In this document: positions 32,701 to 57,212 of the stretch, piece by piece
Position numbering within the stretch: position 1 is the first letter of the stretch
Layout: each line of letters starts with the position of its first letter
From: Henricia sp. BOLD:AAB3569
Lineage: Eukaryota; Echinodermata; Asteroidea; Spinulosida; Echinasteridae
DNA: 64,000 bases
Assembly (NCBI GenBank): GCA_037783545.1
Contig: JBBELK010000325.1
Location: 62,001 to 126,000 of the forward strand
Reading direction: 5' to 3'
Notes under the pieces: generated by a model
Told to the model about the DNA's origin: nothing
Seen by the model: only the letters and a program-made list of their open reading frames with translations
The model's database searches: none
Position numbers and translations under genes: made by a program

Positions 32701-35700
32701 TGATACTCAGAACGGGAGTTGCAGGGTATTCTGCAATAGACCGTATTCCTGAACGCGTGAGGGCGCTCGAACAAGGTGATTTGGGGGAAAATGTCCATAG
32801 ACGACAGTAGAAAAGTGGGGGTACGTGCATATACGTACGTGGGGAAAAGTCGCGTACGCGGAGCGCGCAGGCCCGTGGCGCGCGCACAGATTTCCATTTA
32901 AAATAAACGTCTGGAAGGCGTGCGCGCATAGCGCGTTTTGTGTTCGAACATAACGCGCGATGGGCGCGGATCACTTGACAGCGCCCTCACGCGTTCAGGA
33001 ATACGGCCTATTGTGCTTATAAAGTACCCATTGCAAATTTTTTTTTTTCGAATTTTTTTAAATATTTTAGTACAATACCTAAAGGTACGATTTGAAAGAA
33101 GACGAGTCAAGCTATTAGTACATGCCTAGCAATTGACGGTGTGTTTGCAGAAACATGAATTTCAGTTGAACAAGGACGATATATACCAGGCAGTTTGGGG
33201 AACTTTGAGGAGAAAGCTGCAGGGCAGTTTTCGGCATTTTGAGGACTGATATTAACCCTCGACCTCATCTGAAGCCTAACACCCATAGCGGCCGGAAGTG
33301 GCCATCAACCCCACAATGTTTGAACACTTCTTTTAATGTGTACTTTAAGTATTCATCTTTTAATTAAGGTCCCAATATGTATGCTCTCTTGTACAGATGT
33401 CAAGATGTTCCCGTTCTTAACCAGTGACATCCCATTTTCTTGGCATCACTCTGGGCATATCGCTGGGTACACGTGGAAATGCATGGTCTGTAAAGGCTTA
33501 ATATATCTTACCTGCAGGAACCCCATCTCGTATCCAGTCATCCTGTAGCTTCATTTTATGGCTGTTCTCATAAGGCCCAAACAGCAATCCAGATCGCTCC
33601 TGTCTTAGGTAGTAGGAGTTCTCGAGATCACGAATCACTGGAGGTTCTCTCTCTAATGCCTCTACTTCAGGAATGGAGGAGGTGATAACGTATTGATGCT
33701 GAATAGCAATCATAGGGAGCTCAACGCCTGCTAAACGGCCGACGTCGGTAGCCCAAAAACCTGACCAATAAAACAATAATAATATTGGATCACAGAGGGT
33801 TCTCTCTTTAATGCCTCTACTTCAGGAATGGAGGATGTGATAACGTATTGATGCTGAATAGCAATCATAGGGAGGTCAACGCCTGCTAAACGGTCGACAT
33901 CGGTCGCCCAAAAACTTGACCAATAAAACAATAATAATAATGGATCACAGAGGGTTCTCTCTTTAATGCCTCTACTTCAGGAATGGAGGATGTGATAACG
34001 TATTGATGCTGAATAGCAATCATAGGAAGCTCAACGCCTGCTAAACGGTCGACATCGGTCGCCCAAAAACTTGACCAATAAAACAATAATAATAATGGAT
34101 CACAGGGGGTTCTCTCTTTAATGCCTCTACTTCAGGAATGGAGGATGTGATAACGTATTGATGCTGAATAGCAATCATACATGTAGGGAGCTCAACGCCT
34201 GCTAAACGGCCGACGTCAGTAGCCCAGAAACCTGACCAATAAAACAATAATAATATTGGATCACAGGGGGTTCTCTCTTTAATGCCTCTACTTCAGGAAT
34301 AGAGGAGGTGATAACGTATTGATGCTGAATAGCAATCATAGGGAGCTCAACGCCTGCTAAACGGCCGACGTCAGTAGCCCAGAAACCTGACCAACAAAAC
34401 AATAATAATAATGGATCACAGGGGGTTCTCTCTTTAATGCCTCTACTTCAGGAATGGAGGATGTGATAACGTATTGATGCTGAATAGCAATCATACATGT
34501 AGGGAGCTCAACGCCTGCTAAACGGCCGACATCAGTAGCCCAGAAACCTGACCAATAAAACAATAATAATATTGGATCACAGGGGGTTCTCTCTTTAATG
34601 CCTCTACTTCAGGAATAGAGGAGGTGATAACGTATTGATGCTGAATAGCAATCATAGGGAGCTCAACGCCTGCTAAACGGCCGACGTCAGTAGCCCAGAA
34701 ACCTGACCAACAAAACAATAATAATAATGGATCACAGGGGGTTCTCTCTTTAATGCCTCTACTTCAGGAATGGAGGATGTGATAACGTATTGATGCTGAA
34801 TAGCAATCATACATGTAGGGAGCTCAACGCCTGCTAAACGGCCGACGTCAGTAGCCCAGAAACCTGACCAACAAAACAATAATAATAATGGATCACAGGG
34901 GGTTCTCTCTTTAATGCCTCTACTTCAGGAATGGAGGATGTGATAACGTATTGATGCTGAATAGCAATCATACATGTAGGGAGCTCAACGCCTGCTAAAC
35001 GGCCGACGTCAGTAGCCCAGAAACCTGACCAACAAAACAATAATAATAATGGATCACAGGGGGTTCTCTCTCTAATGCCTCTACTTCAGGAATAGAGGCT
35101 GTTATAACGTATTGATGCTGAATAGCAATCATAGGGAGCTCAACGACTGCTAAACGGCCGACATCGGTCGCCTAAAAAACCCGACCAACAAAACAATAAT
35201 AATAATATTGGTTGATTTTTGGATTGAGTTTGTGCAAATCACCACACATGTGCGTTTTCTGTGTTGTTTTTGGAGTCAAACGAATCACGTCACAATGCAT
35301 TAAGCGCGTATTGAGATGACTCCAAATGAGATGACTCCCACAATGGCAGTCTTCACAAGTGTGAGCAGCAGTGGTTCGCACAAGTTCAATAGCACACATT
35401 GTCTGTCCTGCAGGATACTTTTGGCGCTGCTGCCATTATTACCGCTGCCATTATTACCGCTGCCATTATTACCGCTGCCAAGTGTGCGGTGGTTCGCACA
35501 AGCTCAATAGCACACATTGTCTGTCCTGCAGGATACTCTTGGCGCTGCTGCCATTATTACCGCTGCCATTATTACCGCTGCCATTATTACCGCTGCCATT
35601 ATTACCGCTGCCATTATTACCGCTGCCATTATTACCGCTGCCATTATTACCGCTGCCATTATTACCGCTGCCAAGTGTGCGGTGGTTCGCACAAGCTCAA

Positions 35701-38700
35701 TAGCACACATTGTCTGTCCTGCAGGATACTTTTGGCGCTGCTGCCATTATTACCGCTGCCATTATTACCGCTGCCATTATTACCGCTGCCAAGTGTGCGG
35801 TGGTTCGCACAAGCTCAATAGCACACATTGTCTGTCCTGCAGGATACTTTTGGCGCTGCTGCCATTATTACCGCTGCCATTATTACCGCTGCCATTATTA
35901 CCGCTGCCAAGTGTGCGGTGGTTCGCACAAGCTCAATAGCACACATTGTCTGTCCTGCAGGATACTCTTGGCGCTGCTGCCATTATTACCGCTGCCATTA
36001 TTACCGCTGCCATTATTACCGCTGCCATTATTACCGCTGCCATTATTACCGCTGCCATTATTACCGCTGCCATTATTACCGCTGCCATTATTACCGCTGC
36101 CAAGTGTGCGGTGGTTCGCACAAGCTCAATAGCACACATTGTCTGTCCTGCAGGATACTTTTGGCGCTGCTGCCATTATTACCGCTGCCATTATTACCGC
36201 TGCCATTATTACCGCTGCCATTATTACCGCTGCCATTATTACCGCTCCCATTATTACCGCTGCCATTATTACCGCTGCCATTATTACCGCTGCCATTATT
36301 ACCGCTGCCATTATTACCGCTGCCATTATTACCGCTGCCATTATTACCGCTGCCAAGTGTGCGGTGGTTCGCACAAGCTCAATAGCACACATTGTCTATC
36401 CTTCAGGATACTCCTGGCGCTGCTGCCATTATTACCGCTGCCATTTCGCTTCAACTAAAGGCCTGTCCGCATTGGACTTTTTTTGGAGGCAAACTTACCG
36501 AGACGATGGGTACTTTCCCATTTTAAGTCCAATGCGGACAGCCTAGGACATTTTCCTCTGAGTAACATTTCCCAAGTCCAGTGGTTACTTTTCCTGGCCA
36601 ACTTCTGCCCAGGAAAATTGACCAGGGAACTTTTTCCCGAGACAAAAAGTCCAATACCGACACAGCGAGTTGGTAATAGCGTATGTCCAGGCTGTGAAGG
36701 TCAAACTGCAAAGAGACACTGCGCATGCTCTCCCACGGTCTCGGTAAAATTTTACTAAGTCAAAAAGTCCAAATGCGGAGAGCAGTAAAATTTAGCCATT
36801 TTTCATTTTACCATCGTCTCGGTAAAACCTTCCAAAAACAAGTCCAATGCGGACACGGCTTAGGTGGCTGCCTGACCAAGACACACGACCCTATCTGCAC
36901 TAAGAGTGTGGCATTCTCCCTCAATAACTCACCTGCAGCATTGACGACTCGTCTAGCATTCAATGTGGACACGGCTTAGGTGGCTGCCTGACCAAGACAC
37001 ACGACCCTATCTGCACTGTGGCATTCTCCCTCAATAACTCACCTGCAGCATTGACGACTCGTCTAGCATTCAATGTGGACACGGCTTAGGTTGCTGCCTG
37101 ACCAAGACACACGACCCTATCTGCACTTAGAGTGTGGCATTCTCCCTCAATAACTCACCTGCAGCATTGACGACTCGTCTAGCATTCAATGTGGACACGG
37201 CTTAGGTGGCTGCCTGACCAAGACACACGACCCTATCTGCACTTAGAGTGTGGCATTCTCCCTCAATAACTCACCTGCAGCATTGACGACTCGTCTAGCA
37301 TTCAATGTGGACACGGCTTAGGTGGCTGCCTGACCAAGACACACGACCCTATCTGCACTTAGAGTGTGGCATTCTCCCTCAATAACTCACCTGCAGCAAT
37401 GACGACTCGTCTAGCATTCAATGAGGACACGGCTTAGGTGGCTGCCTGACCAGGACACACGACCCTATCTGCACTTAGAGTGTGGCATTCTCCCTCAATA
37501 ACTCACCTGCAGCATTGACGACTCGTCTAACATTCAATGTGGACACAGCTTAGGTGGCTGCCTGACCAAGACACACAACCCTATCTGCACTTAGAGTGTG
37601 GCATTCTCCCTCAATAACTCACCTGCAGCATTGACGACTCGTCTAGCATTCAATGTGGACACGGCTTAGGTGGCTGCCTGACCAAGACACACGACCCTAT
37701 CTGCACTTAGAGTGTGGCATTCTCCCTCAATAACTCACCTGCAGCATTGACGACTCGTCTAGCATTCAATGAGGACACGGCTTAGGTGGCTGCCTGACCA
37801 AGACACACGACCCTATCTGTACTAAGAGTGTGGCATTCTCCCTCAATAACTCACCTGCAGCATTGACGACTCGTCTAGCATTCAATGTGGACACGGCTTA
37901 GGTTGCTGCCTGACCAAGACACACGACCCTATCTGCACTGTGGCATTCTCCCTCAATAACTCACCTGCAGCATTGACGACTCGTCTGGCATTCAATGAGG
38001 ACACGGCTTAGGTGGCTGCCTGACCAAGACACACGACCCTATCTGCACTTAGAGTGTGGCATTCTCCCTCAATAACTCACCTGCAGCATTGACGACTCGT
38101 CTAGCATTCAATGTGGACACGGCTTAGGTTGCTGCCTGACCAAGACACACGACCCTATCTGCACTTAGAGTGTGGCATTCTCCCTCAATAACTCACCTGC
38201 AGCATTGACGACTCGTCTAGCATTCAATGTGGACACGGCTTAGGTGGCTGCCTGACCAAGACACACGACCCTATCTGTACTTAGAGTGTGGCATATTCTC
38301 CCTCAATAACTCACCTGCAGCATTGACGACTCGTCTAGCATTCAATGAGGACACGGCTTAGGTGGCTGCCTGACCAAGACACACGACCCTATCTGTACTT
38401 AGAGTGTGGCATTCTCCCTCAATAACTCACCTGCAGCATTGACGACTCGTCTAGCATTCAATGAGGACACGGCTTAGGTGGCTGCCTGACCAAGACACAC
38501 GACCCTATCTGCACTAAGAGTGTGGCATTCTCCCTCAATAACTCACCTGCAGCATTGACGACTCGTCTAGCATTAAATGAGGACACGGCTTAGGTGGCTG
38601 CCTGACCAAGACACACGACCCTATCTGCACTGTGGCATTCTCCCTCAATAACTCACCTGCAGCATTGACGACTCGTCTAGCATTCAATGTGGACACGGCT

Positions 38701-41700
38701 TAGGTTGCTGCCTGACCAAGACACACGACCCTATCTGCACTAAGAGTGTGGCATTCTCCCTCAATAACTCACCTGCAGCATTGACGACTCGTCTAGCATT
38801 CAATGAGGACACGGCTTAGGTGGCTGCCTGACCAAGACACACGACCCTATCTGCACTAAGAGTGTGGCATTCTCCCTCAATAACTCACCTGCAGCATTGA
38901 CGACTCGTCTAGCATTCAATGAGGACACGGCTTAGGTGGCTGCCTGACCAAGACACACGACCCTATCTGCACTAAGAGTGTGGCATTCTCCCTCAATAAC
39001 TCACCTGCAGCATTGACGACTCGTCTGGCATTCAATGAGGACACGGCTTAGGTGGCTGCCTGACCAAGACACACGACCCTATCTGCACTTAGAGTGTGGC
39101 ATTCTCCCTCAATAACTCACCTGCAGCATTGACGACTCGTCTAGCATTCAATGAGGACACGGCTTAGGTGGCTGCCTGACCAAGACACACGACCCTATCT
39201 GCACTAAGAGTGTGGCATTCTCCCTCAATAACTCACCTGCAGCATTGACGACTCGTCTAGCATTCAATGTGGACACGGCTTAGGTGGCTGCCTGACCAAG
39301 ACACACGACCCTATCTGCACTAAGAGTGTGGCATTCTCCCTCAATAACTCACCTGCAGCATTGACGACTCGTCTAGCATTCAATGTGGACACGGCTTAGG
39401 TGGCTGCCTGACCAAGGCACACGACCCTATCTGCACTTAGAGTGTGGCATTCTCCCTCAATAACTCACCTGCAGCATTGACGACTCGTCTAGCATTCAAT
39501 GAGGACACGGCTTAGGTGGCTGCCTGACCAGGACACACGACCCTATCTGCATTTAGAGTGGCATTCTCCCTCAATAACTCACCTGCAGCATTGACGACTC
39601 GTCTAGCATTCAATGAGGACACGGCTTAGGTGGCTGCCTGACCAAGACACACGACCCTATCTGCACTAAGAGTGTGGCATTCTCCCTCAATAACTCACCT
39701 GCAGCATTGACGACTCGTCTAGCATTCAATGAGGACACGGCTTAGGTGGCTGCCTGACCAAGACACACGACCCTATCTGCACTAAGAGTGTGGCATTCTC
39801 CCTCAATAACTCACCTGCAGCATTGACGACTCGTCTAGCATTCAATGAGGACACGGCTTAGGTGGCTGCCTGACCAAGACACACGACCCTATCTGCACTT
39901 AGAGTGTGGCATTCTCCCTCAATAACTTACCTGCAGCATTGACGACTCGTCTAGCATTCAATGAGGACACGGCTTAGGTTGCTGCCTGACCAAGGCACAC
40001 GACCCTATCTGCACTTAGAGTGTGGCATTCTCCCTCAATAACTCACCTGCAGCATTGACGACTCGTCTAGCATTCAATAAGGACACGGCTTAGGTGGCTG
40101 CCTGACCAAGACACACGACCCTATCTGCACTGTGGCATTCTCCCTCAATAACTCACCTGCAGCATTGACGACTCGTCTAGCATTCAATGAGGACACGGCT
40201 TAGGTGGCTGCCTGACCAAGACACACGACCCTATCTGTACTTAGAGTGTGGCATTCTCCCTCAATAACTCACCTGCAGCATTGACGACTCGTCTAGCATT
40301 CAATGAGGACACGGCTTAGGTGGCTGCCTGACCAAGACACACGACCCTATCTGCACTTAGAGTGTGGCATTCTCCCTCAATAACTTACCTGCAGCATTGA
40401 CGACTCGTCTAGCATTCAATGAGGACACGGCTTAGGTTGCTGCCTGACCAAGGCACACGACCCTATCTGCACTTAGAGTGTGGCATTCTCCCTCAATAAC
40501 TCACCTGCAGCATTGACGACTCGTCTAGCATTCAATAAGGACACGGCTTAGGTGGCTGCCTGACCAAGACACACGACCCTATCTGCACTGTGGCATTCTC
40601 CCTCAATAACTCACCTGCAGCATTGACGACTCGTCTAGCATTCAATGAGGACACGGCTTAGGTGGCTGCCTGACCAAGACACACGACCCTATCTGTACTT
40701 AGAGTGTGGCATTCTCCCTCAATAACTCACCTGCAGCATTGACGACTCGTCTAGCATTCAATGAGGACACGGCTTAGGTGGCTGCCTGACCAAGACACAC
40801 GACCCTATCTGCACTGTGGCATTCTCCCTCAATAACTCACCTGCAGCATTGACGACTCGTCTGGCATTCAATGAGGACACGGCTTAGGTGGCTGCCTGAC
40901 CAAGACACACGACCCTATCTGCACTAAGAGTGTGGCATTCTCCCTCAATAACTCACCTGCAGCATTGACGACTCGTCTAGCATTCAATGAGGACACGGCT
41001 TAGGTGGCTGCCTGACCAAGACACACGACCCTATCTGCACTTAGAGTGTGGCATTCTCCCTCAATAACTCACCTGCAGCATTGACGACTCGTCTAGCATT
41101 CAATGAGGACACGGCTTAGGTGGCTGCCTGACCAAGGCACACGACCCTATCTGCACTTAGAGTGTGGCATTCTCCCTCAATAACTCACTTGCAGCATTGA
41201 CGACTCGTCTAGCATTCAATGAGGACACGGCTTAGGTGGCTGCCTGACCAAGGCACACGACCCTATCTGCACTTAGAGTGTGGCATTCTCCCTCAATAAC
41301 TCACCTGCAGCATTGACGACTCGTCTGGCATTCAATGAGGACACGGCTTAGGTGGCTGCCTGACCAAGACACACGACCCTATCTGCACTTAGAGTGTGGC
41401 ATTCTCCCTCAATAACTCACCTGCAGCATTGACGACTCGTCTAGCATTCAATGAGGACACGGCTTAGGTGGCTGCCTGACCAAGACACACGACCCTATCT
41501 GCACTGTGGCATTCTCCCTCAATAACTCACCTGCAGCATTGACGACTCGTCTAGCATTCAATGAGGACACGGCTTAGGTGGCTGCCTGACCAAGACACAC
41601 GACCCTATCTGCACTTAGAGTGTGGCATTCTCCCTCAATAACTCACCTGCAGCATTGACGACTCGTCTGGCATTCAATGAGGACACGGCTTAGGTGGCTG

Positions 41701-44700
41701 CCTGACCAAGACACACGACCCTATCTGCACTAAGAGTGTGGCATTCTCCCTCAATAACTCACCTGCAGCATTGACGACTCGTCTAGCATTCAATGAGGAC
41801 ACGGCTTAGGTGGCTGCCTGACCAAGACACACGACCCTATCTGCACTTAGAGTGTGGCATTCTCCCTCAATAACTCACCTGCAGCATTGACGACTCCTCT
41901 AGCATTCAATGAGGACACGGCTTAGGTGGCTGCCTGACCAAGACACACGACCCTATCTGCACTTAGAGTGTGGCATTCTCCCTCAATAACTCACCTGCAG
42001 CATTGACGACTCGTCTAGCATTCAATGAGGACACGGCTTAGGTTGCTGCCTGACCAAGGCACACGACCCTATCTGTACTTAGAGTGTGGCATTCTCCCTC
42101 AATAACTCACCTGCAGCATTGACGACTCGTCTAGCATTCAATGAGGACACGGCTTAGGTGGCTGCCTGACCAAGGCACACGACCCTATCTGCACTTAGAG
42201 TGTGGCATTCTCCCTCAATAACTCACTTGCAGCATTGACGACTCGTCTAGCATTCAATGAGGACACGGCTTAGGTGGCTGCCTGACCAAGGCACACGACC
42301 CTATCTGCACTTAGAGTGTGGCATTCTCCCTCAATAACTCACCTGCAGCATTGACGACTCGTCTGGCATTCAATGAGGACACGGCTTAGGTGGCTGCCTG
42401 ACCAAGACACACGACCCTATCTGCACTTAGAGTGTGGCATTCTCCCTCAATAACTCACCTGCAGCATTGACGACTCGTCTAGCATTCAATGAGGACACGG
42501 CTTAGGTGGCTGCCTGACCAAGACACACGACCCTATCTGCACTGTGGCATTCTCCCTCAATAACTCACCTGCAGCATTGACGACTCGTCTAGCATTCAAT
42601 GAGGACACGGCTTAGGTGGCTGCCTGACCAAGACACACGACCCTATCTGCACTTAGAGTGTGGCATTCTCCCTCAATAACTCACCTGCAGCATTGACGAC
42701 TCGTCTGGCATTCAATGAGGACACGGCTTAGGTGGCTGCCTGACCAAGACACACGACCCTATCTGCACTGAGAGTGTGGCATTCTCCCTCAATAACTCAC
42801 CTGCAGCATTGACGACTCGTCTAGCATTCAATGAGGAAACGGCTTAGGTGGCTGCCTGACCAAGACACACGACCCTATCTGCACTAAGAGTGTGGCATTC
42901 TCCCTCAATAACTCACCTGCAGCATTGACGACTCGTCTAGCATTCAATGAGGACACGGCTTAGGTGGCTGCCTGACCAAGACACACGACCCTATCTGCAC
43001 TTAGAGTGTGGCATTCTCCCTCAATAACTCACCTGCAGCATTGACGACTCGTCTGGCATTCAATGAGGACACGGCTTAGGTTGCTGCCTGACCAAGACAC
43101 ACGACCCTATCTGCACTTAGAGTGTGGCATTCTCCCTCAATAACTCACCTGCAGCATTGACGACTCGTCTAGCATTCAATGTGGACACAGCTTAGGTGGC
43201 TGCCTGACCAAGACACACGACCCTATCTGCACTTAGAGTGGCATTCTCCCTCAATAACTCACCTGCAGCATTGACGACTCGTCTGGCATTCAATGAGGAC
43301 ATGGCTTAGGTGGCTGCCTGACCAAGACACACGACCCTATCTGTACTTAGAGTGTGGCATTCTCCCTCAATAACTCACCTGCAGCATTGACGACTCGTCT
43401 AGCATTCAATGAGGACACGGCTTAGGTGGCTGCCTGACCAAGACACACGACCCTATCTGCACTGTGGCATTCTCCCTCAATAACTCACCTGCAGCATTGA
43501 CGACTCGTCTAGCATTCAATGAGGACACGGCTTAGGTGGCTGCCTGACCAAGACACACGACCCTATCTGCACGTAGAGTGTGGCATTCTCCCTCAATAAC
43601 TCACCTGCAGCATTGACGACTCGTCTAGCATTCAATGAGGACACGGCTTAGGTGGCTGCCTGACCAAGACACACGACCCTATCTGCACTTAGAGTGTGGC
43701 ATTCTCCCTCAATAACTCACCTGCAGCATTGACGACTCGTCTAGCATTCAATGAGGACACGGCTTAGGTGGCTGCCTGACCAAGACACACGACCCTATCT
43801 GCACTGTGGCATTCTCCCTCAATAACTCACCTGCAGCATTGACGACTCGTCTAGCATTCAATGTGGACACAGCTTAGGTGGCTGCCTGACCAAGACACAC
43901 GACCCTATCTGCACTGTGGCATTCTCCCTCAATAACTCACCTGCAGCATTGACGACTCGTCTAGCATTCAATGTGGACACAGCTTAGGTGGCTGCCTGAC
44001 CAAGACACACGACCCTATCTGCACTTAGAGTGTGGCATTCTCCCTCAATAACTCACCTGCAGCATTGACGACTCGTCTAGCATTCAATGAGGACACGGCT
44101 TAGGTGGCTGCCTGACCAAGACACACGACCCTATCTGCACTAAGAGTGTGGCATTCTCCCTCAATAACTCACCTGCAGCATTGACGACTCGTCTAGCATT
44201 CAATGTGGACACAGCTTAGGTGGCTGCCTGACCAAGACACACGACCCTATCTGCACTTAGAGTGTGGCATTCTCCCTCAATAACTCACCTGCAGCATTGA
44301 CGACTCGTCTAGCATTCAATGAGGACACGGCTTAGGTGGCTGCCTGACCAAGACACACAACCCTATCTGCACTAAGAGTGTGGCATTCTCCCTCAATAAC
44401 TCACCTGCAGCATTGACGACTCGTCTAGCATTCAATGAGGACACGGCTTAGGTGGCTGCCTGACCAAGACACACGACCCTATCTGCACTTAGAGTGTGGC
44501 ATTCTCCCTCAATAACTCACCTGCAGCATTGACGACTCGTCTAGCATTCAATGAGGACACGGCTTAGGTGGCTGCCTGACCAAGACACACGACCCTATCT
44601 GTACTTAGAGGCTGCGTTCGGGTGTGCAGTTCTCGTTACTCGGGAGTAATGCGTGCGCATTGCACTCGGGTCACATCACGCGAACGGCAAGTCCGCAGTA

Positions 44701-46937
44701 GAGTCCGCGTGCGCGAATGGCAATCAGTGAAGATGGCTGTCTCTTGCCATCACTGCACACAAAAATGCTGTTTCACTGCTCACAAGAAACTGAGGAAATA
44801 CAGGCCGTAAGTCGTGAGAACCTTTGATGCCGTCTAAAACAAACCTTAGTGAGTTATTGTTTCAGTTATTGAGTTGACACGTTGAGCAAATTCACCAAAA
44901 ATCCCACCCATATTCCACCATCTTCGTACAAATCACATGACACTTGACAGGAGTACGAGCACACTCCCCATTTGTTGGGGAGTGGGGAGAGCATACTCTC
45001 ACTGACCCGAGTGTCGTTATTCTTGCCGTTCACTAGCGCAGGAGTATAACTCGTGTTAACACGAGTACACGCCTGAACGCAGCCAGAGTGTGGCATTCTC
45101 CCTCAATAACTCACCTGCAGCATTGACAACTCGTCTAGCATTCAATGTTCCATGTTCTGTTTCCACATCCCATCCCCCATCACTTCGCTGTTTTAGGCCT
45201 TCAGCACCAGCAGGCATGTATATCTCAGCTCCATATTTCCTTGCCCCGATAGCCAAGGCTTGCGTCAATGAGTAAGGATCAACGTGCCCGTCTTCTGGGT
45301 TATGTATGCCACCAAGTACCTGGAAAGAATAATAATTAGTGCAAATTTCATGTGAATATGTTCCCGCATGATACCAACATGTATTTTAAGAAAAAGCAAC
45401 AGGGTATAGCTGCATTTTTAATGATGACTTTGACACGGATGTGGTGCTTTATTCTGACCCTGACCAAACCCCCACCCACTCCACCGCCCCGCCCCCCTCC
45501 CCCCTTACCCTCACCCTCTTACCCCATCTATATTCAGCAAAGGATGTAACTCGGCCATTTTCTCTGGACCAATCAGTTCTTGCGGCGCTTTATTCCATCC
45601 TTGTCGTGACATCTGGTACCTGCCCTCATCCATACGCTCTGGTGTAGTGAGCAGTCGAAGGCTACCAGGCTGGTGGAATCCAATTTGCTGTATTAGGAGT
45701 AAAAGAATATTTAAGGAACTGTTTACCACAAATAGACCGTACCAAATAGCCGCCATTTCGTCGGGCAGTTTCTTTGTTCCTTGATGACATGCATGATTGC
45801 ACACATTGTGCTTCCATTGTTGAACGGTTTAAGTAACAAAAGGCGCCCCACGCAGTGGCGGCTATTCGATATGGTCTATTGAGCTCGTGCCAATGACGTC
45901 ATTTTGGGAGAAAAACAATGCCGCGTCGTTGTGGAAGCAATGTGCGTGCGCGTTGTGTGTCCATAGCGCGCGTAACGCGCTATGCTGCCGAGGCTCCCAT
46001 TGGTGAACTAAATCGCCCACCAGAGACACACACAACGCGTACGCACATCGCTTCCACAATGACTCAGCATTATTTGACTCCCAAAATGGCATATTCGCAC
46101 GTGTTCGAAAGGGGTTAATACACATTTCACTACAATTACAGTGAAACCTGCTATTAAGGCCACCTGTTTATAGTGATCCCAAGTGCCATGTGTATAATGC
46201 TAATGCAACCTTTATAATGGGGCCACCTGCTTATGTTACATTGTAGCAGCCAGTTTTTGCCAGTCATCTCAAGGGTGGCCACTATATACATGTACAAGTT
46301 TCACAGTGTCTCATGTGAAGGCGATTACTCCTGATAGGCCTAAAAATGTGAGCAATAAAAACAGAAAAATAGAAATCCATCCACAAAAAGAGGAAACCTT
46401 TTATACTTTTGCACTAAAAAATTAGGAATTTTTATTAAAATTTAAAAAGAGGAAATTAGTTGAAAAGAAGAAATCAGCGGCGGATCCAGGCTCATATATT
46501 ATAAAACATCAAAATATCATTTGTTCATACACCAATACATGTATCGTCAAAGGTTTATGTTTATGATGCTGCAAAAAACAAGGAAAATGCCATGTTTCTT
46601 GGTCTATGGTATTTTTGAAACCCTACTCCAAATGAAATAAGAAATATGGTCAGGTAATTTCATGCAAATTGTCATTCTATTACAAGAAAATCAACCACTA
46701 ACTTGAATAATTACTTTTCAAATGAAATTTAATTGCAATAATCATTCATAGAGATCTGTATTTTTGAAAATTAATACAAGGATGACACAAAGCAGCGACA
46801 TTACCAAGGGGGCGCCTGGGCACGTAACCCCTCCCCAAAATGAGACTCGAGGTGTACACAACTGTATGTGTAAGCTGCTTTGAGTGCCCCCTCTCTAACA
46901 TGTTGTGTCCCCCCCCCCCCCCCCCCCCACCGCCACC

Positions 46938-46970
<33 letters not shown>

Positions 46971-49900
46971 CCTCTCTAACATGTTGTGTCCAGCTCCCCC
47001 CCACCGCTCCCCCACCGGCCCCCGCCCCCCTGCTCCCCTACCCCCCACACCACACCACCCCACCCACCCCCAATTTGAAAAGTCTGCCGACCCCACTGGC
47101 ACAAAAGCATGCCGTTCTATGGTAACATGCAGAATGACACCCCTTGATGGAATTGCCCTTTGATCAATTGCTAGATCACGGAATGAACATCAGGTGACTT
47201 CAAACTACTTTGATTAAAGCCAAGATAAGTAGTTTGACTTCATTTTAACCCCCTGGTGTACAGAGATTATTTGTTCTTCCTTTGTTCTGGGCGATCTCTA
47301 GAAACCGCCCTGGCCCTGTGTACTAAAGGGTTAATCAAGGCAATCAAGCATACTATATATGGAAACAAAGGTGAAACGTTCAGGGGGTAAAAATAATATT
47401 CAGTATTACATACATGTAGAGTGGCAGCATGGTGACATTGCCATACAGTACACTACTTGTCGCCCACCCCCCTCCCCCAACCCCTCCCCCCCCCAAAAAA
47501 AAAATGGTTTACAGATATGGTACATGCATTATGTACGTCATGCACTTTGTACCCCTCAGAAAAAATACAAACGGGGAAATCCACAGGGGTCCCTAATCCA
47601 GCATATTATTCACAAGCATATGTTCAGTGAATAATTATCAAGGACGATAAAATAAATTGATAGCTTGTGGTTTTTTGTTCGCAACCATAAAAAGTGTTCA
47701 AACTTGAATATGGCGAAAAGCTTGTGATGTTTGTATTTATCAACTGGATTCACACTCAATGCATTTATATGCACCTATCAATTGTTTCCCCTCCCCTCCC
47801 TCATCCACACTACCCCACCCCTGTAGTGGAGAGTTTGTCATCTAAATTTGCTCCAGGGGTGGGGATTTTGTGTTCAGTAAATTCAATTAATCAACCATAC
47901 CAGTCTTGATTATTTCAATTTGTTGTGGTCTCTGGCCGTGTCAAAATAATCTATGGTATGGATGTGTATTTCAATGCCTACTGACTACACACATATTTGC
48001 AGCTTTTTCCCAACGACAAACACTCCCACATCCTGACATTTCCTGGCTTACCCAAGCACAAATGCAAGCACATCTTGACATTTCCTGGCTTACCCAAGCA
48101 CAAATGCAAGCACATCTTGACATTTCCTGGCTTACCCAAGCACAAATGCAAGCACATCTTGACATTTCCTGGCTTACCCAAGCACAAAGTGCAAGCTCCT
48201 GTGCATTGTAAAGCTAGCTTGCTTGAAAGCATAACATGTGGGGAAAATACTGGAATTCCCATCTATAAAAGGAACAGAAAATATGTGGGAGGAAACAGCT
48301 CGTTTTTCCTTCCAAGTACTACAGCCTTTTCCCTAAGTAAACTTGATTTCAAACTAAAAAATCCTGTGACTGAAATAGAGAATTTATTTGCAATTTCTTT
48401 ACAATTCTGCTTGATTCAAATGTTCATTTTATTCCCTCGATATTTGGGGCGCGGGGGGTGAATGGGGGAGTGAGGTGAGGGAGTAATGAGTAACGACATA
48501 CCTGCCCAGTTTCTTCTTCTAATTTCTCAAAAAGCTTAATGCTGTAGTAGTGGATGTTTTTTAGATTGATGCCTGGGTGGAAATAAGTCGTCAGTCCGGC
48601 CTAGAGAGGAAACAAACACGGAGTTCAATCGATTGTCAATATAATGAAATAAATTTAAATATTTTAAATGATTGAAAAGTCCCATGGGGACGTCTCTGCA
48701 ATGTCATCAGAACAATGTAGCAGAACATGAACAATTAGCCTTTAGCGTCTGGTGTACTGATGTACTTCTTTTCACATGCAAACTTGACTAAATTTTTGTT
48801 AGTATGTGGTGCACGTGGCAGGTGTAAAGTACAGAATCAGTACCATGGTCACCGTAGAAGGGAATGGCATCAAGCAACCAGACTGTTGATTGCTAGGCAA
48901 TGGCGTGCACCACGTAGCAACAACAGCTTAGTATGTGGACATTCTGCACCTCCATTTGAAAGTGAAGGATTTGGGGCACCAGCCATTATGCAACTATTTC
49001 ACGCAAAAGGCTCTTTAAATAGCTGGTGTACACATGTTAAACTGTGGATAAGAAAACTCTTATACCAACTGTATAGACCGTATCAAATAGCTGCCATCTT
49101 GTAGACCAGCTTTTGACAATTAAATTGGTCAACAATGTGAACACAAAATGTGCAACCATGCATCATGTCCTCAATGAACAAAAAACTGCCCTACAAGATG
49201 GCAGCTATTCGATACTGTCTATATGGAGGGTGATTTAAATCTCACACCTCCAACACACCAAGCAGATACTTTACCAACCGAGCTACAGTGAATGATGCTC
49301 TGTATAAGTGAGTAAAACCCGATTATGCAGATTTTAATTTCATTTTAGTCTCAGAGCTTTCGAAATTTAGTTACCTAGGTTCCATATATCAATGTTGCCT
49401 ATTGATCACTCTCAAATGACATCACTTCCTACAGATTGCCACGTGCATCAGGATCTTGAGCATAAATATTTGTGACGCTCAGCGGCTGGGCCATATTTGG
49501 AATGCATTTTGAGCAACATGCCTGCTTGTTTGGAACATTTTCCATGATGTGCGTACGCGTACTTGATGGCGTTTAATACACAGTTGTATGTTTCCTACAA
49601 AGGTGGCGCCTGTGAAAGTGGTCATCAACAGCAACCATGGAGCATGTACTCATTGCATGCCAGGTTGATCCTACTTTCAGTTCAGACTCCTTCATACCAG
49701 CCTTAGCGAGATGGTAGGCAATACTGGTACCCACACACCCTCCGCCGATGATCGCTACTTCAGCTGTCTAGGTTTAATAAATTGCCTATAGTATCATGGA
49801 GCATGTACTCACTGCATGCCAGGTTGATCCTGCAGTCAATTCAGACTTCTCGAGTAACACCACATCCTTCATACCAGCCTTAGCGAGATGGTAGGCAATA

Positions 49901-50799
49901 CTGGTACCCACACACCCTCCACCGATGATCACTACTTCAGCTGTGCTCTTTAGTCTCTTGTCCAGTTTACCAGCCGGTGACTGACCATTGCTGTAACGTT
50001 TGATAAAACACACTAGGTTTTAAGTTAAGAATCATATAAAATACATGTACATGTACCCCAAAATACTATCCATGGGAAGAAAACATGAAATTTGTCATCC
50101 CTAATTTTGGATGTGAGAGCAAAAAGGCTGGTTGTGATCAATGCAATGCTTTATAGAATCAGATAAATTAGTTTACAAAACATCGGTGGTTTTTGACGAT
50201 ATCCTTGAAAAATTTAGAACACAAAATTTGAGAAAGGTAATGAGACAAAATATGACATGGTTAACCCTTTAACCATCATTGGTACACATTTGTACCTTAA
50301 CACTATGCATGAGGAAAAGGCTTGGAAACGACTATTGTTGCATCACTAGTTTGGCTCTGCAGTTTTCAAATTCAAAGCATGTTTTCAGTTGCTTACTGTT
50401 AACGATGTCTGTGAAATAGCCTGATGCTTGGTTAAGAGAAAATAGGCTGTTAAGTGGCTCTTCAAAATTGGGCCCCGGCAGCCGATTTCACGAATCCTTA
50501 CACACTGCGTAAGTCCCCTTGCGCAACATTTTATTGCGTAGGCTGCGCAACATTTCTGTGAAAATTACACGCAAGCTATGGGGCTTGCGCCATTTTGCAA
50601 AAGTTGCGCAAGCTGCGCACTCTTTCGTGAAATCGGCTGCTGGACTGCCAAAGATTCACCTTGCATGTCTGGCATTCATACCAGTGGAAAACGACGTAGC
50701 AGGTCGATACCAGGGACATCTCCATCTCTGATTGGCTGGACATGATCTTAAAACCGATGGACCAGAACGTCCACACAGGAATGACAGATAGCTACTCAT
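23534..50799 (-). CDS. DMGDH: Dimethylglycine dehydrogenase, mitochondrial, 16 coding exons
   Basis: Spliced from 5' to 3': 50799-50660, 49990-49813, 48600-48502, 45687-45523, 45319-45115, 33760-33512, 32555-32357, 31642-31523, 30009-29855, 28555-28338, 28189-28059, 27458-27241, 26907-26750, 25756-25697, 25111-24974, 23728-23534. Total 2628 nt, 875 residues, close to the 866 of human DMGDH; phases agree everywhere. Known role: oxidises N,N-dimethylglycine to sarcosine in the mitochondrial matrix with FAD and tetrahydrofolate, passing electrons to ETF. Seen: an Arg/Ser-rich leader without acidic residues (1-46), the dinucleotide motif [10 protein letters not shown] (66-75), the GSTWHA histidine H105 where FAD is covalently attached in the family, [14 protein letters not shown], then the folate-binding GcvT-like half (from about 500) with [13 protein letters not shown] and GNTTSG near the end. 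It differs from sarcosine dehydrogenase by closer match to DMGDH throughout. An in-frame TGA at 50812-50814 precedes the ATG. Introns 1, 5, 12 and 15 carry copies of exon edges. Confidence 0.97.
23774..24186. mobile_element. MITE with CAATGCATAGTTTCGA ends, copy 1
   Basis: CAATGCATAGTTCCGA on the left and TCGAAACTATGCATTG on the right. It lies 45 bp upstream of the DMGDH exon 16 acceptor. Reverse-complement relative at 58628-59072. Confidence 0.82.
24340..24990. repeat. About 102-bp tandem array from DMGDH exon 15 3' edge (6-7 copies)
   Basis: Repeat spacing, measured on CTCTGATTGG, is 104, 102, 102, 98 and 107 bp. On the - strand each unit contains the exon 15 end coding [14 protein letters not shown] sequence, then intron sequence with GGCCAATCAG. 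Internal units lack the donor. The unit nearest exon 15 (true exon) and the farthest one (GATCAG|GTAAAT near 24352) both have one. 102 bp is 34 codons, giving a frame open over four units. Confidence 0.9.
24974..25111 (-). CDS. DMGDH: DMGDH exon 15
   Basis: Encodes residues 766-811: [20 protein letters not shown], then [13 protein letters not shown]. Acceptor TCACAG, donor AATAAG|GTAAAT, phase 0. Its 3' edge is the source of the 102-bp array downstream. Confidence 0.95.
25697..25756 (-). CDS. DMGDH: DMGDH exon 14 (20 codons)
   Basis: A 60-nt exon encoding residues 746-765, [20 protein letters not shown], matching NPLEAGLxxFxKLxK of the family. Acceptor ACTCAG, donor AAG|GTTAGT, phase 0/0. 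Confidence 0.93.
26750..26907 (-). CDS. DMGDH: DMGDH exon 13
   Basis: Encodes residues 693-745: [20 protein letters not shown], then [20 protein letters not shown] and RMWGQE, strongly conserved in the DMGDH/GcvT family. Donor GAG|GTAATA, phase 0. Confidence 0.97.
27000..27182 (-). pseudogene. Decayed copy of DMGDH exon 12 3' edge
   Basis: Two blocks match the true exon 12 edge: about 26998-27030 matches the intron/donor side at 27216-27250, and 27148-27182 matches exon sequence at 27288-27318. About 100 bp of unrelated sequence separates them. It reads as an old exon-edge duplication with a later insertion. Confidence 0.6.
27241..27458 (-). CDS. DMGDH: DMGDH exon 12
   Basis: Encodes residues 620-693: [31 protein letters not shown], then [14 protein letters not shown]. 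Donor ACACAG|GTTGGT, phase 1. A decayed copy of its 3' edge lies downstream in the intron. Confidence 0.96.
27691..27765. mobile_element. Fragment of the GCAGCCGATTTCACGAA MITE
   Basis: GCAGCCGATTTTATGAAACC and TTGCGTAAGCCCACTTGCGC match the left part of 50474-50643. Confidence 0.6.
28059..28189 (-). CDS. DMGDH: DMGDH exon 11
   Basis: Encodes residues 577-620: [20 protein letters not shown], then [11 protein letters not shown]. The donor is CTCAG|GTTGGT, weaker than most in this gene. Phase 2. Confidence 0.94.
28338..28555 (-). CDS. DMGDH: DMGDH exon 10
   Basis: Encodes residues 504-576: [34 protein letters not shown], then [20 protein letters not shown]. This is the start of the GcvT-like folate domain. 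Donor GAA|GTGAGT, phase 0. Confidence 0.96.
28807..29043. mobile_element. Hairpin MITE, relative of 9072-9282
   Basis: GGCCAATTTCATGGCGCTGC and GCAGCGCCATGAAATTGGCC ends; the left arm is nearly identical to 9072 onward. In DMGDH intron 9. Confidence 0.88.
29412..29678 (-). mobile_element. tRNA-derived SINE with target-site duplication
   Basis: On the - strand the head GCTCGGTGGTCGAGTAGTTA...GTGGGTTCGAATCCCGC (29505-29575) is tRNA-like with A and B boxes. ATTAGGGTTTGTTT flanks the unit at 29415-29428 and 29665-29678. The acceptor and anticodon stems are imperfect, so this is not a tRNA gene. Confidence 0.75.
29855..30009 (-). CDS. DMGDH: DMGDH exon 9
   Basis: Encodes residues 452-504: [20 protein letters not shown], then [20 protein letters not shown] and GFHAG. 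It links the oxidase and folate-binding halves. Donor GCAG|GTAAGT, phase 1. Confidence 0.96.
30388..30702 (-). mobile_element. tRNA-derived SINE with AAT tail (copy 2)
   Basis: Reverse-complement relative of 1626-1984, with the tail at its low-coordinate end (ATTATTATTATTTCTTTCTG) and the B box near 30670. Lies in DMGDH intron 8. Confidence 0.8.
30740..30925. repeat. Dispersed repeat, relative at 49430-49622
   Basis: CTACAGATTGCCACGTGCAT and TTTCCATGATGTACTTGACG match 49432-49570. Confidence 0.75.
31046..31340. mobile_element. Truncated copy of the TGTCCGCATTGGACT MITE
   Basis: Sequence from CTAAAGGGTCAGTCC through AACTGCGCATGCTCTCCCAC matches 36455-36735. Lies in DMGDH intron 8. Confidence 0.7.
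31523..31642 (-). CDS. DMGDH: DMGDH exon 8
   Basis: Encodes residues 412-452: [20 protein letters not shown], then [19 protein letters not shown]. Acceptor CTTGCAG, donor CG|GTAAGT, phase 2. This closes the FAD-oxidase half. Confidence 0.96.
32357..32555 (-). CDS. DMGDH: DMGDH exon 7
   Basis: Encodes residues 346-412: [20 protein letters not shown], then [20 protein letters not shown], ending LAGGSG. Donor GG|GTGAGC, phase 2. Confidence 0.96.
32735..33016. mobile_element. MITE with AATAGACCGTATTCCTGAAC ends
   Basis: AATAGACCGTATTCCTGAAC and GTTCAGGAATACGGCCTATT inverted ends, inside DMGDH intron 6; the core is GC-rich (CGCGCGC tracts). Confidence 0.85.
33512..33760 (-). CDS. DMGDH: DMGDH exon 6
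   Basis: Encodes residues 263-346: [36 protein letters not shown], then [20 protein letters not shown]. Acceptor TTGGTCAG, donor GCAG|GTAAGA, phase 1. Its first half and acceptor are repeated nine times upstream. Confidence 0.97.
33761..35212. repeat. 155/161-bp tandem array carrying DMGDH exon 6 acceptor (9 copies)
   Basis: Nine units follow the true exon 6 on its upstream side. On the - strand each holds about 30 bp of intron end (ATTATTGTTTTRTTGGTCAG), then the first roughly 125 nt of exon 6 ([16 protein letters not shown]... to ALKREPPVI), then directly the next unit. The 161-bp form has an extra 6 bp (CATGTA) in the exon part; 155 and 161 alternate in the middle, suggesting a 316-bp dimer. 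Units lack the exon 6 donor. Confidence 0.96.
35213..35365. other. Unique intron sequence between two arrays
   Basis: Short single-copy stretch in DMGDH intron 5; no feature seen. Confidence 0.5.
35366..36442. repeat. Nested satellite: about 70-bp segment plus variable runs of a 15-bp repeat
   Basis: A block ending in ACATTGTCTGTCCTGCAGGA and a GGCGCTGCTG link is followed by runs of CCATTATTACCGCTG. Run lengths by reading are about 3, 8, 3, 3, 8, 13 and a truncated last run. The 15-bp repeat has no stops, so long meaningless frames appear (AIITA, PLLPL or CHYYR repeats). Confidence 0.93.
36455..36863. mobile_element. MITE with TGTCCGCATTGGACT inverted ends
   Basis: Left end CTAAAGGCCTGTCCGCATTG, right end reading CAATGCGGACACGGCTTAG, an inverted pair. 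Its right end merges into the first unit of the 116-bp satellite. A second, truncated copy starts at 31046. Confidence 0.8.
36845..44609. repeat. 116-bp satellite carrying DMGDH exon 5 donor (about 67 copies)
   Basis: The unit is 116 bp, with a common 110-bp variant lacking 6 bp (GCACTGTGGC instead of GCACTTAGAGTGTGGC) and a few 114-bp variants. Read on the - strand each unit holds the last roughly 35 bases of exon 5 ending CTGCAG, then the donor GTGAGTTATTGAGG, then about 65 bp of intron, and 16-19 bp from the end of the MITE at 36455-36863. Copies are nearly identical. All have GAC GACTCGT where the true exon has GACAACTCGT. Donor variants are rare: CTTACCTGCAG (GTAAGT) twice and CACTTGCAG twice. 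No long open frame crosses the array. It fills most of DMGDH intron 5. Confidence 0.97.
44610..45084. mobile_element. 475-bp MITE with GGCTGCGTTC ends and AGA target duplication
   Basis: Ends GGCTGCGTTC and GAACGCAGCC, flanked by AGA at 44607-44609 and 45085-45087. It interrupts a satellite unit (CTTAGA | AGAGTGTGG) and so separates the real exon 5 donor from the array. Confidence 0.85.
45115..45319 (-). CDS. DMGDH: DMGDH exon 5
   Basis: Encodes residues 195-263: [20 protein letters not shown], then [20 protein letters not shown] and AAG. Donor GCAG|GTGAGT, phase 1. The last bases of this exon and the following intron start are the template of the 116-bp satellite; this copy alone reads GTT for the Val before NAAG, while the array copies read GTC. 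Confidence 0.97.
45523..45687 (-). CDS. DMGDH: DMGDH exon 4
   Basis: Encodes residues 140-194: [20 protein letters not shown], then [10 protein letters not shown], then [16 protein letters not shown]. Phase 0/0; acceptor AATACAG, donor GGG|GTAAGA. Confidence 0.97.
45720..45840. mobile_element. Fragment of the TAGACCGTATCAAATAGC MITE
   Basis: ATAGACCGTACCAAATAGCC and internal TTCCTTGATGACATGCATGA resemble 49075-49222. DMGDH intron 4. Confidence 0.55.
45845..46125. mobile_element. Palindromic element
   Basis: GACGTCATTTTGGGAG, TTGTGGAAGCAATGTGCGTG and GCGCGCG centre, with inverted CGCACATCGCTTCCACAATG and CTCCCAAAATG. Confidence 0.65.
46130..46885. other. DMGDH intron 4, nothing recognised
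   Basis: AT-rich intron sequence; no exon or repeat structure seen by eye. Confidence 0.4.
46886..47070. repeat. Poly-C tract between two short direct repeats
   Basis: CCCTCTCTAACATGTTGTGTC flanks (about 46888 and 46971) enclose more than 50 nearly uninterrupted C. Frames through it give meaningless poly-Pro or poly-Gly. Confidence 0.85.
48025..48190. repeat. 40-bp minisatellite, 4 copies, DMGDH intron 3
   Basis: Unit CTTGACATTTCCTGGCTTAC plus CCAAGCACAAATGCAAGCACA repeated. Confidence 0.93.
48502..48600 (-). CDS. DMGDH: DMGDH exon 3
   Basis: Encodes residues 107-139, [20 protein letters not shown] then [12 protein letters not shown], nearly identical to vertebrate DMGDH. Phase 0 at both ends; acceptor CTCTAG, donor CAG|GTATGT. 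Confidence 0.97.
48746..49018. repeat. Dispersed repeat, empty-site relative of 8958-9520
   Basis: Same left and right parts without the MITE and with one 26-bp unit. DMGDH intron 2. Confidence 0.8.
49075..49222. mobile_element. MITE with TATAGACCGTATCAAATAGC ends
   Basis: TATAGACCGTATCAAATAGC and GCAGCTATTCGATACTGTCTA inverted ends, 148 bp. DMGDH intron 2. Confidence 0.85.
49430..49622. repeat. Dispersed repeat, relative of 30740-30925
   Basis: CTACAGATTGCCACGTGCAT through CCTGTGAAAGTGG, same order as the other copy. DMGDH intron 2. Confidence 0.75.
49636..49770 (-). pseudogene. Broken tandem copy of DMGDH exon 2
   Basis: The exon 2 block from the [19 protein letters not shown] region to the donor is repeated next to 49796-49945. 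The copy has lost about 18 bp in the DVVLLEK region, its donor is GCA|ATGAGT instead of GTGAGT, and its 5' side stops at the AEVV codons. It cannot be spliced as a normal exon. Confidence 0.8.
49813..49990 (-). CDS. DMGDH: DMGDH exon 2 (FAD-binding motif, FAD-attachment His)
   Basis: Encodes residues 47-106: [20 protein letters not shown], then [20 protein letters not shown]. The GGGCVG turn binds FAD, Glu of LLEK contacts the ribose, and His of TWHA is the covalent flavin site in DMGDH. Acceptor TTACAG, donor GCA|GTGAGT. A damaged partial copy lies 26 bp downstream in the intron. Confidence 0.97.
50474..50643. mobile_element. MITE with GCAGCCGATTTCACGAA ends in DMGDH intron 1
   Basis: GCAGCCGATTTCACGAATCC and TTTCGTGAAATCGGCTGC ends; it begins only 17 bp after the exon 1 donor. 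Confidence 0.85.
50660..50799 (-). CDS. DMGDH: DMGDH exon 1 (mitochondrial targeting peptide)
   Basis: Encodes residues 1-46 plus two bases. The segment [20 protein letters not shown] and what follows is rich in Arg, Ser and Cys with no Asp or Glu, as expected for a matrix-targeting leader. Donor GCAAG|GTGAAT, phase 2, joins exactly to exon 2. Confidence 0.85.
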
Positions 50800-55226: not shown

Positions 55227-57212
55227 GAATAAGCCAGTTGCGTGTAGATTTGCATAAATCCTAGAGTCCTGCCTCTGCGCTATGGCGCTCGCATAATAAG
55301 AGAGTACTGCACCAGACTACCAGGCCGTTGGCAACGGTTGCCAAGTGGCAAGGGGGTGCACGCTAGAACATGTTAGCCGGCGCGAAAGTCTGTACGGTAC
55401 CTGGAATACCTCGCACAGTACTCTATGCATTTTGAAGCTGGACCATCCGAAATTACATGTTGAAATTGCATGTTAAAACATGTACTCGCCATGAAATTTC
55501 GTCAAAATAACGAGTTAGAACGTCTTGTTTGACTCGAAATAGACGTTAACTTTGAAAGCTGGATCGTTCCCAATCTGTGCATGATAAATTCAAAAAAAAG
55601 AGTAACGATTTCGGGTTATAAGACTGGTTTGAAGCTGCCGATTTAACGTCACGAACCCGAACGAAGGGAGACGTATACACTAGACACCAAACTTGACTTG
55701 AAATAGGGGAAATAAGATGACATGCAGATTGTAAATCTTGCCAATATGATAAAATTAATAGCGCCGTTGATTGTTTATCCATTTGACGGAACATCGTCAG
55801 AAATTGGCGAGTTTTACTGTTCCAAAACGCGCGTTCAACATAACAGCGAGCGACTCTCGTTTTGCGTACAAGACCGGCATACGATTTCAAATACACCTTC
55901 CGAATTTTTTGAAAAGAAAAGGTCATGCCTGTTTGTTTCCGAAAATGATCGACGTCTCGCAGCAACTTGGGTAAAATCAAAAGTAATTCAATTATGAATT
56001 AAAATGATTATCTAGCTACATACAAGTTACAACAGATTTTAGAAATACTTTGGCTGCAAAAACTTGACCGAGCGGTTGTTGTGTTATACGTTGTTGAGTT
56101 TGTCTATATCCGTGCGGAATACGGAATTCACCACTAAAAATTGAGATGGGAAAAAAGGGCAGGCTCTAATTTGTGGGCGACAAACAGCACCCGTAACACA
56201 CTTCGATTAGAATAAAATTTTAAACAAAGACAAACAATTATATCTCCTAACAGTCCTCAGTTTCACAAATCTGTCTAGCAAACACGAACCGGGATACGAT
56301 CGACCTTTTTATTTTGGTATATTTAGTAGGCATCGCATAATTTTCGCATTTCCATTTTTCCCGGTCCACACACGCAAAATTCATGTTTCCTATTAAACCA
56401 AATCACGTTTCCTAACCAAATTTAAACTTTATGGGGGTATAATATCATGTAATATTAGAAAGAATTAGTGGCGAGGGTGTACGGTATTTATATCTCCACT
56501 TAATTAAGTCGCGTACGTTGATGTATTTCTCGCGATTTTACTTGGGCTTCGGAATATGCCGGTCATGTACGCAAAACGAGAGTCGCTCGCTGTCGCGTTG
56601 AACGGCGATCTGAAACAGCAAAACTCGCCAATTTCTGACGAAGTTCCGTCGAATGGATATTAAACAATCAACGGCGATATTAATTTTTTATCATATTGTG
56701 GCAAGATTTACTAGCTGCATGTCATCTTATTTCCCCTATTTCAAGTCAAGTTTGCTGTAAAGTGTATACGTCTCCCTTCGTTCGGGTTCGACGTTCAATC
56801 GGCAACTTTGAACCGGTCTCATAACCCGAAATCGTTACTCTTTTCTTGAATTGATCATGCACAGATTGGGAACAATCCAGCTTTCAAAGTTAACGTTCAT
56901 TTCGAGTCAAACAAGACGTTCTAACTCGTTATTTTGACGAAACTTCATGGCGAGTACATGTTTTAACATGCAATTTCAACATGTAATTTCGGATGGTCCA
57001 GCTTCAAAATGCATAGAGTACTGTGCGAGGTATTCCAGGTACCGTACAGACTTTCGCGCCGGCTAACATGTTCTAGCGTGCACCCCCTTGCCACTTGGCA
57101 ACCGTTGCCAACGGCCTGGTAGTCTGGTGCAGTACTCTCTTATTATGCGAGCGCCATAGCGCAGAGGCAGGACTCTAGGATTTATGCAAATCTATCACGC
57201 AACTGGCTTATT
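55227..57212. mobile_element. 1.98-kb foldback element, copy 1
   Basis: Ends AATAAGCCAGTTGCGTG and CACGCAACTGGCTTATT. Inverted arms of about 650 bp (55227-55885 and 56560-57212) surround a core of about 670 bp. Open frames of 144 and 91 codons lie on opposite strands of one arm and match no family I know. Confidence 0.92.

Follow-up and report, generated by a model that had tools for sequence, protein, structure and literature searches.

Tandem arrays of splice junctions at both ends of intron 5 in a sea star dimethylglycine dehydrogenase gene

The DMGDH gene and its fifth intron

We analyzed 64,000 nucleotides of the genome of the sea star Henricia sp. BOLD:AAB3569 (GenBank assembly GCA_037783545.1, 740.7 Mb; contig JBBELK010000325.1, positions 62,001 to 126,000 of the forward strand). 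This stretch, called the window here, carries on its minus strand a gene for dimethylglycine dehydrogenase (DMGDH) whose fifth intron begins with a tandem array of copies of the exon 5 donor junction and ends with an array of copies of the exon 6 acceptor junction. Fifteen exons, picked by their splice signals, join into a single open frame of 829 codons that matches dimethylglycine dehydrogenase 5l46 at 1223 bits, which bears out the gene name given in an earlier, sequence-only reading of the window. Exons are numbered as in that reading. Among the 120 matches listed, the nearest DMGDH proteins are those of other sea stars, Patiria miniata (83% identity) and Asterias rubens (81%), and a tblastn search with the Patiria protein matched the exons one by one. 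Coding exon 1, about 42 residues according to the Patiria protein, was not located. Judging by the open frame, the identity to Patiria and the exon-wise tblastn matches, the gene looks functional despite the arrays.

Intron 5 is 11354 nt long and is preceded by an intron 4 of 203 nt and followed by an intron 6 of 956 nt. By hand-set coordinates, its arrays and two mobile elements account for about 98% of its length. The mobile elements are called MITE1 and MITE2 (MITE, miniature inverted-repeat transposable element). The features in and around this intron are as follows, in the direction of the gene and in window coordinates.

45115..45319, minus strand: authentic exon 5, 205 bp, of which the last 33 bp are repeated in the donor array
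45106..45114, minus strand: authentic exon 5 donor, intron side GTGAGTTAT after CAG
44610..45084, no strand assigned: MITE1, 475 bp, with terminal inverted repeats GGCTGCGTTC and the 3-bp duplication AGA
36845..44609, minus strand: donor array, 67 units of about 116 bp with a GT donor in each (33 bp of the end of exon 5, about 72 bp of homology to a dispersed repeat from the donor on, and about 11 bp of the tip of MITE2)
36460..36844, no strand assigned: MITE2, a dispersed element adjoining the donor array, boundaries set by eye
35368..36445, minus strand: compound minisatellite (118 bp / 15 bp); part of each unit is homologous to the continuation of the dispersed repeat
33634..35206, minus strand: acceptor array, 10 copies of 155 or 161 bp, each with the end of intron 5, the acceptor and the first part of exon 6
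33512..33760, minus strand: exon 6, 249 bp, the final acceptor-array copy; no other copy extends into a complete exon

A donor array at the start of intron 5

Tandem Repeats Finder (TRF) reported head-to-tail units from 36845 to 44610 with a period of 116, 67.5 copies and 96% matches. The array end at 44609 given in the sequence-only reading is exact, since MITE1, which terminates the array, begins at 44610. A junction scan located 68 donors, 67 of them array copies and one the authentic exon 5 donor at 45114, and all 68 have GT. Sixty-four read CAGGTGAGT (CAG/GTGAGT, with the slash at the splice junction), two read CAGGTAAGT, a GTAAGT form (at 40388 and 39930), and two read CAAGTGAGT (at 42226 and 41188). 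Neighboring donors are 116 nt apart in 52 cases, 110 nt in 11, 114 nt in two and 118 nt in one, and the first copy lies 594 nt from the authentic donor. Beyond the array, the window has a single CAGGTGAGT on the gene strand, that of the real donor, and none on the other strand, which excludes a chance origin of the copies. The exonic part of the unit matches the real end of exon 5 with one difference, GTC for GTT, present in all 67 units. The sequence-only reading had described about 67 tandem 116-bp copies of the end of exon 5, with about 68 near-identical, intact donors, situated within the gene of origin. Our scans agree with it on each of these points, and the array does lie between exons 5 and 6 of DMGDH.

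The 67 units comprise 37 distinct sequences with a mean pairwise substitution difference of 1.9%. One block of five units and one block of four units each recur, and none of 500 shuffles of the unit order reached five. We infer from these higher-order blocks that the array has grown by exchange. The GTAAGT units close both copies of the 4-unit block and the CAAGTGAGT units close both copies of the 5-unit block; therefore, each pair of variant donors probably stems from a single mutation. The GTAAGT variants had been counted as two occurrences; two copies are indeed present, but they are probably not independent.

Misjoined reads could in principle have created the array or set its length, and the copy number of tandem repeats in assemblies is often wrong. 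However, the array has 37 distinct units arranged in higher-order blocks, its flanks are unique, and one unit holds a MITE insertion with a target duplication. Other exon-edge arrays are built from different units, and no full-length match to the unit was found off the locus among the matches from the 40 of 365 first-look candidates scored in the assembly. An assembly artefact is thus very improbable.

Variable columns of the unit number 7 of 33 in the exonic part, 13 of 83 in the intronic part and 2 of 9 in the donor, which overlaps both. Donor-specific conservation was not seen across the 67 units, in which variation is low and affords little power. Donor-specific selection is unsupported, as the exon, donor and intron parts of the unit vary similarly and little. 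This bears on the idea that the array acts in cis, its dozens of U1 sites and decoy acceptors slowing or regulating the removal of intron 5 or blocking premature polyadenylation, with copy number tuning DMGDH output. The 64 exact copies of CAG/GTGAGT among 68 donors, which we take to be a near-consensus U1 site, would suit such a role, as would an intron without AATAAA on the gene strand. However, ATTAAA is found eight times in intron 5, within the acceptor array, and arrays of differing sequence lie at other DMGDH exon edges and in another gene, as a mutational process predicts. Together with the lack of donor-specific conservation, these observations make a cis-acting array quite improbable. 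Tandem exon duplication yielding alternative or mutually exclusive exons was rejected, because the units hold just the end or the start of an exon and contain in-frame stops.

Composition of the repeat unit

We searched the assembly with the unit and scored 40 of 365 first-look candidates, so that the match counts are lower bounds. There were at least 133 matches, at least 69 at the DMGDH locus and at least 64 elsewhere. The 64 off-locus matches are confined to the unit's intronic columns, 33-106, at 84-92% identity. With 69 of 133 scored matches at the DMGDH locus and the other 64 restricted to the intronic part, the full unit is not a genome-wide satellite family.

By its sequence, the unit is a hybrid: the end of exon 5 is followed, from the donor onward, by a dispersed repeat and then by the tip of a MITE-like element. 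In our alignment, the repeat's ..TGG[G/T]GAGCTGTT-AGGGGGAATGCC.. and the DMGDH intron correspond starting with the donor, meeting at CAG/GTGAGTTATTGAGGGAGAATGCC. In BLAST, the first similar intron base is number 3 for two loci and lies between 7 and 14 for others. The dispersed repeat is interrupted by MITE2 after CACCTA and continues at GTTGAAGCG, followed by the 118-bp minisatellite. The terminal repeat of MITE2, GTCCGCATTGGACTT, provides the last bases of the unit, and the unit junction is at CATTG, a motif common to exon 5 and MITE2. MITE1 sits in the first unit, 30 nt past the real exon 5 donor; elsewhere in the sequence examined it has three near full-length copies (86-95% identity) and one partial copy.

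The dispersed repeat contains an internal module of about 133 bp, which is tandemly arrayed at L036 (133 bp x 12.8) and L039 (134 bp x 6). The intronic part of the DMGDH unit is of the same module family. The arrays at L036 and L039 repeat the whole module, whereas the DMGDH unit has a shortened version of it joined to exon 5 and a MITE tip.

We considered whether the dispersed repeat is a tRNA-derived short interspersed nuclear element and rejected this, as all six loci lacked an ARAGORN match and an Rfam match at E <= 0.1. A GGTTCGAGCCC-like box in the repeat was seen by eye only. Another copy of the repeat lies in a DMGDH intron at about 26500-26700, and the module is tandem in several places (L036, L039, L040). 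By eye, a copy at L034, about 450-520, stands immediately ahead of a likely acceptor (TTTTCAG) with coding-like sequence, a further case of an element beside a splice site.

An acceptor array at the end of intron 5

The opposite end of the same intron is occupied by the acceptor array, whose last copy is the real exon 6 acceptor (33760). Units of 155 and 161 bp are mixed, the difference being a 6-bp ACATGT insertion, and TRF also gives a dimer period of 316 bp. Seven of the ten copies have CAG/G, the real one included. Six of the nine decoy acceptors retain TTGGTCAG/G, the two nearest have TCAAG for TCAG/G, and the farthest has TCGG. The two nearest still have an AG, shifted by 1 nt.

Splice-site choice in intron 5

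We scored splice sites with a weight matrix built from DMGDH's own sites. The common decoy donor scores the same as the real donor (11.68), and intact decoy acceptors score 8.33-8.59 vs 8.33 for the real acceptor. Because the decoys score like real sites, strength cannot choose the correct pair, and position can. Read-through past exons 5, 15 and 2 soon hits a stop, and all nine decoy acceptors, including the two shifted ones, lead to a stop. Therefore, a productive mRNA requires the outermost pair, the donor at 45114 and the acceptor at 33760.

Human data point to a rule that could make this choice. In PMC9225289, exons with a short upstream and a long downstream intron favor the upstream of two equal-strength 5' sites, minigenes with two identical CAG/guaagu sites use the upstream one exclusively, and shorter exons are favored. 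From this rule and the lengths of introns 4 and 5, exons 5 (205 nt) and 6 (249 nt) should be defined by their nearest sites. Seamless recursive splicing at the CAG/GT of the units is unlikely, as this site scores -2.26 as an acceptor, where the median for the window is -3.64 and the 90% point is 2.73.

Alternatively, a small but real fraction of transcripts may use decoys and become poison isoforms or contain pseudo-exons, in which case the array would impose a mild burden on splicing and be subject to selection. Each unit has an AG 51 nt before the next donor; its score of 6.41 falls between the 95% point (5.29) and the 99% point (8.33) for AGs of the window. No intact donor copy lies less than 590 nt from the real donor at exons 2, 5 and 15, and the two nearest decoy acceptors read TCAAG. 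These features favor the burden; however, the altered acceptors keep an AG, the independent events are few, and in a dynein gene described below, six intact decoy donors begin just 132 nt from the real one. We consider this splicing burden unlikely. For the same reasons, namely the AG kept one base on and the intact dynein decoys, the notion that the nearest decoys have been silenced is a lead only.

Other exon-edge arrays

Two further exon edges of DMGDH are duplicated.

24974..25111, minus strand: exon 15, 138 bp, authentic donor AAG/GTAAAT at 24973
24354..24969, minus strand: exon 15 array, 6 x 102 bp, end of exon 15 and start of the intron
49813..49990, minus strand: exon 2
49636..49767, minus strand: tandem copy of the donor edge of exon 2, damaged by an internal deletion and with the donor GT reading AT

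GTAAAT is found solely at the authentic 24973 and at the far end of the exon 15 array, 24345. By eye, the middle copies of this array lack about 13 bp, including the donor. In a self-comparison, DMGDH contained six local duplications, four of which cross a splice boundary.

A similar array is present in a second gene. At L022 4705-5669 (G000:C217), an array of 132 bp x 7.3 starts in a dynein exon and repeats the exon end together with the donor AAG/GTAGGT. The exon matches cytoplasmic dynein 1 heavy chain 1 (5nug, residues 1573-1628, E 3.8e-26), and Pfam DHC_N2 was found in six stretches of the array (three plus-strand frames, stops read through). Its seven donors are 132 or 129 nt apart; the first is authentic, and the other six are intact decoys. 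A short exon/intron match at this array, GTGGTCAACATC (exon) vs GTGGACAACAG (intron), was noted by eye. Upstream of the array, DHC_N1 is present in L031, the one stretch of the surrounding 60 kb scanned for further dynein exons.

The dynein array came from a background sample of 20 stretches of 10 kb, which is non-random, as nine of them adjoin the window and the other 11 were picked for a CTGCAGGTGAGTT. These 200 kb yielded nine rows of period >=50 and >=4 copies, or eight arrays after joining one split between L013 and L014. One array, that in the dynein gene, is an exon edge, and four rows resemble one 78-bp family (L012 twice, L020, L027). Pfam gave no match in any of 12 frames at the array ends of L009 and L010 (six each), nor in three plus-strand frames of a 46-bp array in L028 that lies outside the nine rows. 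These exon tests covered arrays other than those in L012, L013, L014, L020 and L027.

Proposed origin and tolerance of the arrays

We think it likely that these are exon-edge satellites, that is, arrays that captured splice junctions of a working gene and have been tolerated because splicing pairs sites across exons rather than across the repeat. The donor array itself is most likely a tolerated, nearly neutral satellite, and we infer that the arrays are tolerated by-products of tandem growth seeded by mobile elements. The sequence-only reading had offered neutrality, a sink for U1 and exon definition as possible meanings. Neutrality combined with exon definition is best supported, and the U1 sink is without support either way. 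That reading was incomplete: the acceptor array, the exon 15 array, the duplication at exon 2, the contribution of mobile elements to the unit and the array in the second gene had escaped it.

The order of events may have been as follows. Sequence evidence suggests that a dispersed repeat became established at the donor of exon 5 and that MITE2 inserted into this repeat. Homology at CATTG between the MITE2 terminal repeat and exon 5 would then have permitted a first tandem duplication, and unequal exchange or slippage, as the higher-order blocks suggest, would have expanded it to 67 units. MITE1, as the sequence shows, inserted in the first unit and now sets the distance between the real donor and the first decoy at 594 nt. 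Acceptor copies would have multiplied independently at the other end of the intron. If exon definition operates in this species, exons 5 and 6 would be defined by the nearest donor and acceptor, the outermost pair would be joined, and the satellite would be removed as one intron. Use of a decoy leads to premature stops in the frames examined, and such misspliced RNA would presumably be degraded by mRNA decay.

Several points weigh against this interpretation. Four of six duplications crossing a boundary corresponds to P 0.012 for random placement in the collapsed gene, a post hoc value from one gene with hand-set periods, and within 60 kb around the dynein exon, the sole array of period >=50 and >=4 copies also crosses a splice boundary. 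A preference for boundaries counts against tolerance alone because pure neutrality supplies no reason for it. The CATTG microhomology is 5 bp and could be chance. Retention of GT in 68 of 68 donors is compatible with constraint, in an array where variation is too low to tell. The proximity rule derives from human data, and in PMC9225289, about 60% of all human 5'-site events favored the downstream site before strength was controlled. Finally, correct splicing of DMGDH is a prediction from sequence. We do not treat exon-edge enrichment of duplications as established, given that the P value is post hoc, from one gene and with hand-set periods.

More tentatively, and with somewhat less than even confidence, we suggest that exon-edge satellites are a recurrent class in this genome. 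Elements beside exons would offer short homology, and tandem growth would engulf the junction, creating tens of equal-strength donors or acceptors. DMGDH intron 5 would be the extreme case, the intronic side of its donor apparently being derived from a dispersed repeat. Such introns would survive only through exon definition or where near decoys have been lost or pushed away.

Comparison with known systems

The sequence-only reading considered a satellite built from a functional splice site unusual. This stands, with the qualification that a minisatellite giving multiple splice donors is already in print. Turri, Cuin and Porter reportedly described such a minisatellite in 1995 for the interferon-induced 6-16 / IFI6 transcript; its unit is said to be about a dozen bases, with alternative donors used. 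Like the IFI6 minisatellite, the DMGDH array is a tandem repeat with consensus splice donors in its units (GT in 68 of 68, CAGGTGAGT in 64). Unlike it, DMGDH has 67 copies of a 116-bp hybrid unit made partly of mobile-element sequence, and the same intron ends in an array of acceptors.

In potato RdRp, a tandem genomic duplication across an intron-exon boundary made a new intron (PMC4974935). There too the duplicated segment crosses an intron-exon boundary and carries splice signals. However, that case is one duplication that created an intron, whereas DMGDH has up to 67 copies, several boundaries and presumably no new intron. As in the minigenes of PMC9225289, equal-strength 5' sites compete beside one exon; those constructs held two engineered sites each, whereas DMGDH has 68 natural donors and 10 acceptor copies.

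Splice-site choice has so far been tested with few competing sites in engineered minigenes. With its near-equal donors, DMGDH intron 5 offers a natural test in which proximity rules could be measured directly from RNA. The locus also shows that the sequence of an exon can enter a satellite within the gene it belongs to, the remainder of the unit coming from mobile elements, while the frame stays open.

Minor observations

Beside DMGDH, at 9552-17000 on the plus strand, reading frames inspected by eye resemble exons of a gamma-glutamyltranspeptidase gene. Tandem arrays of a 77-79-bp repeat occur at 11150-11575 and in L012, L020 and L027; the repeat contains CTACCAGCTGAGCTAT, tRNA-like by eye. 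A nearly identical run of reading frames occurs in inverted orientation at 55549-55998 and 62513-62962, which suggests a large inverted repeat or a mobile element.

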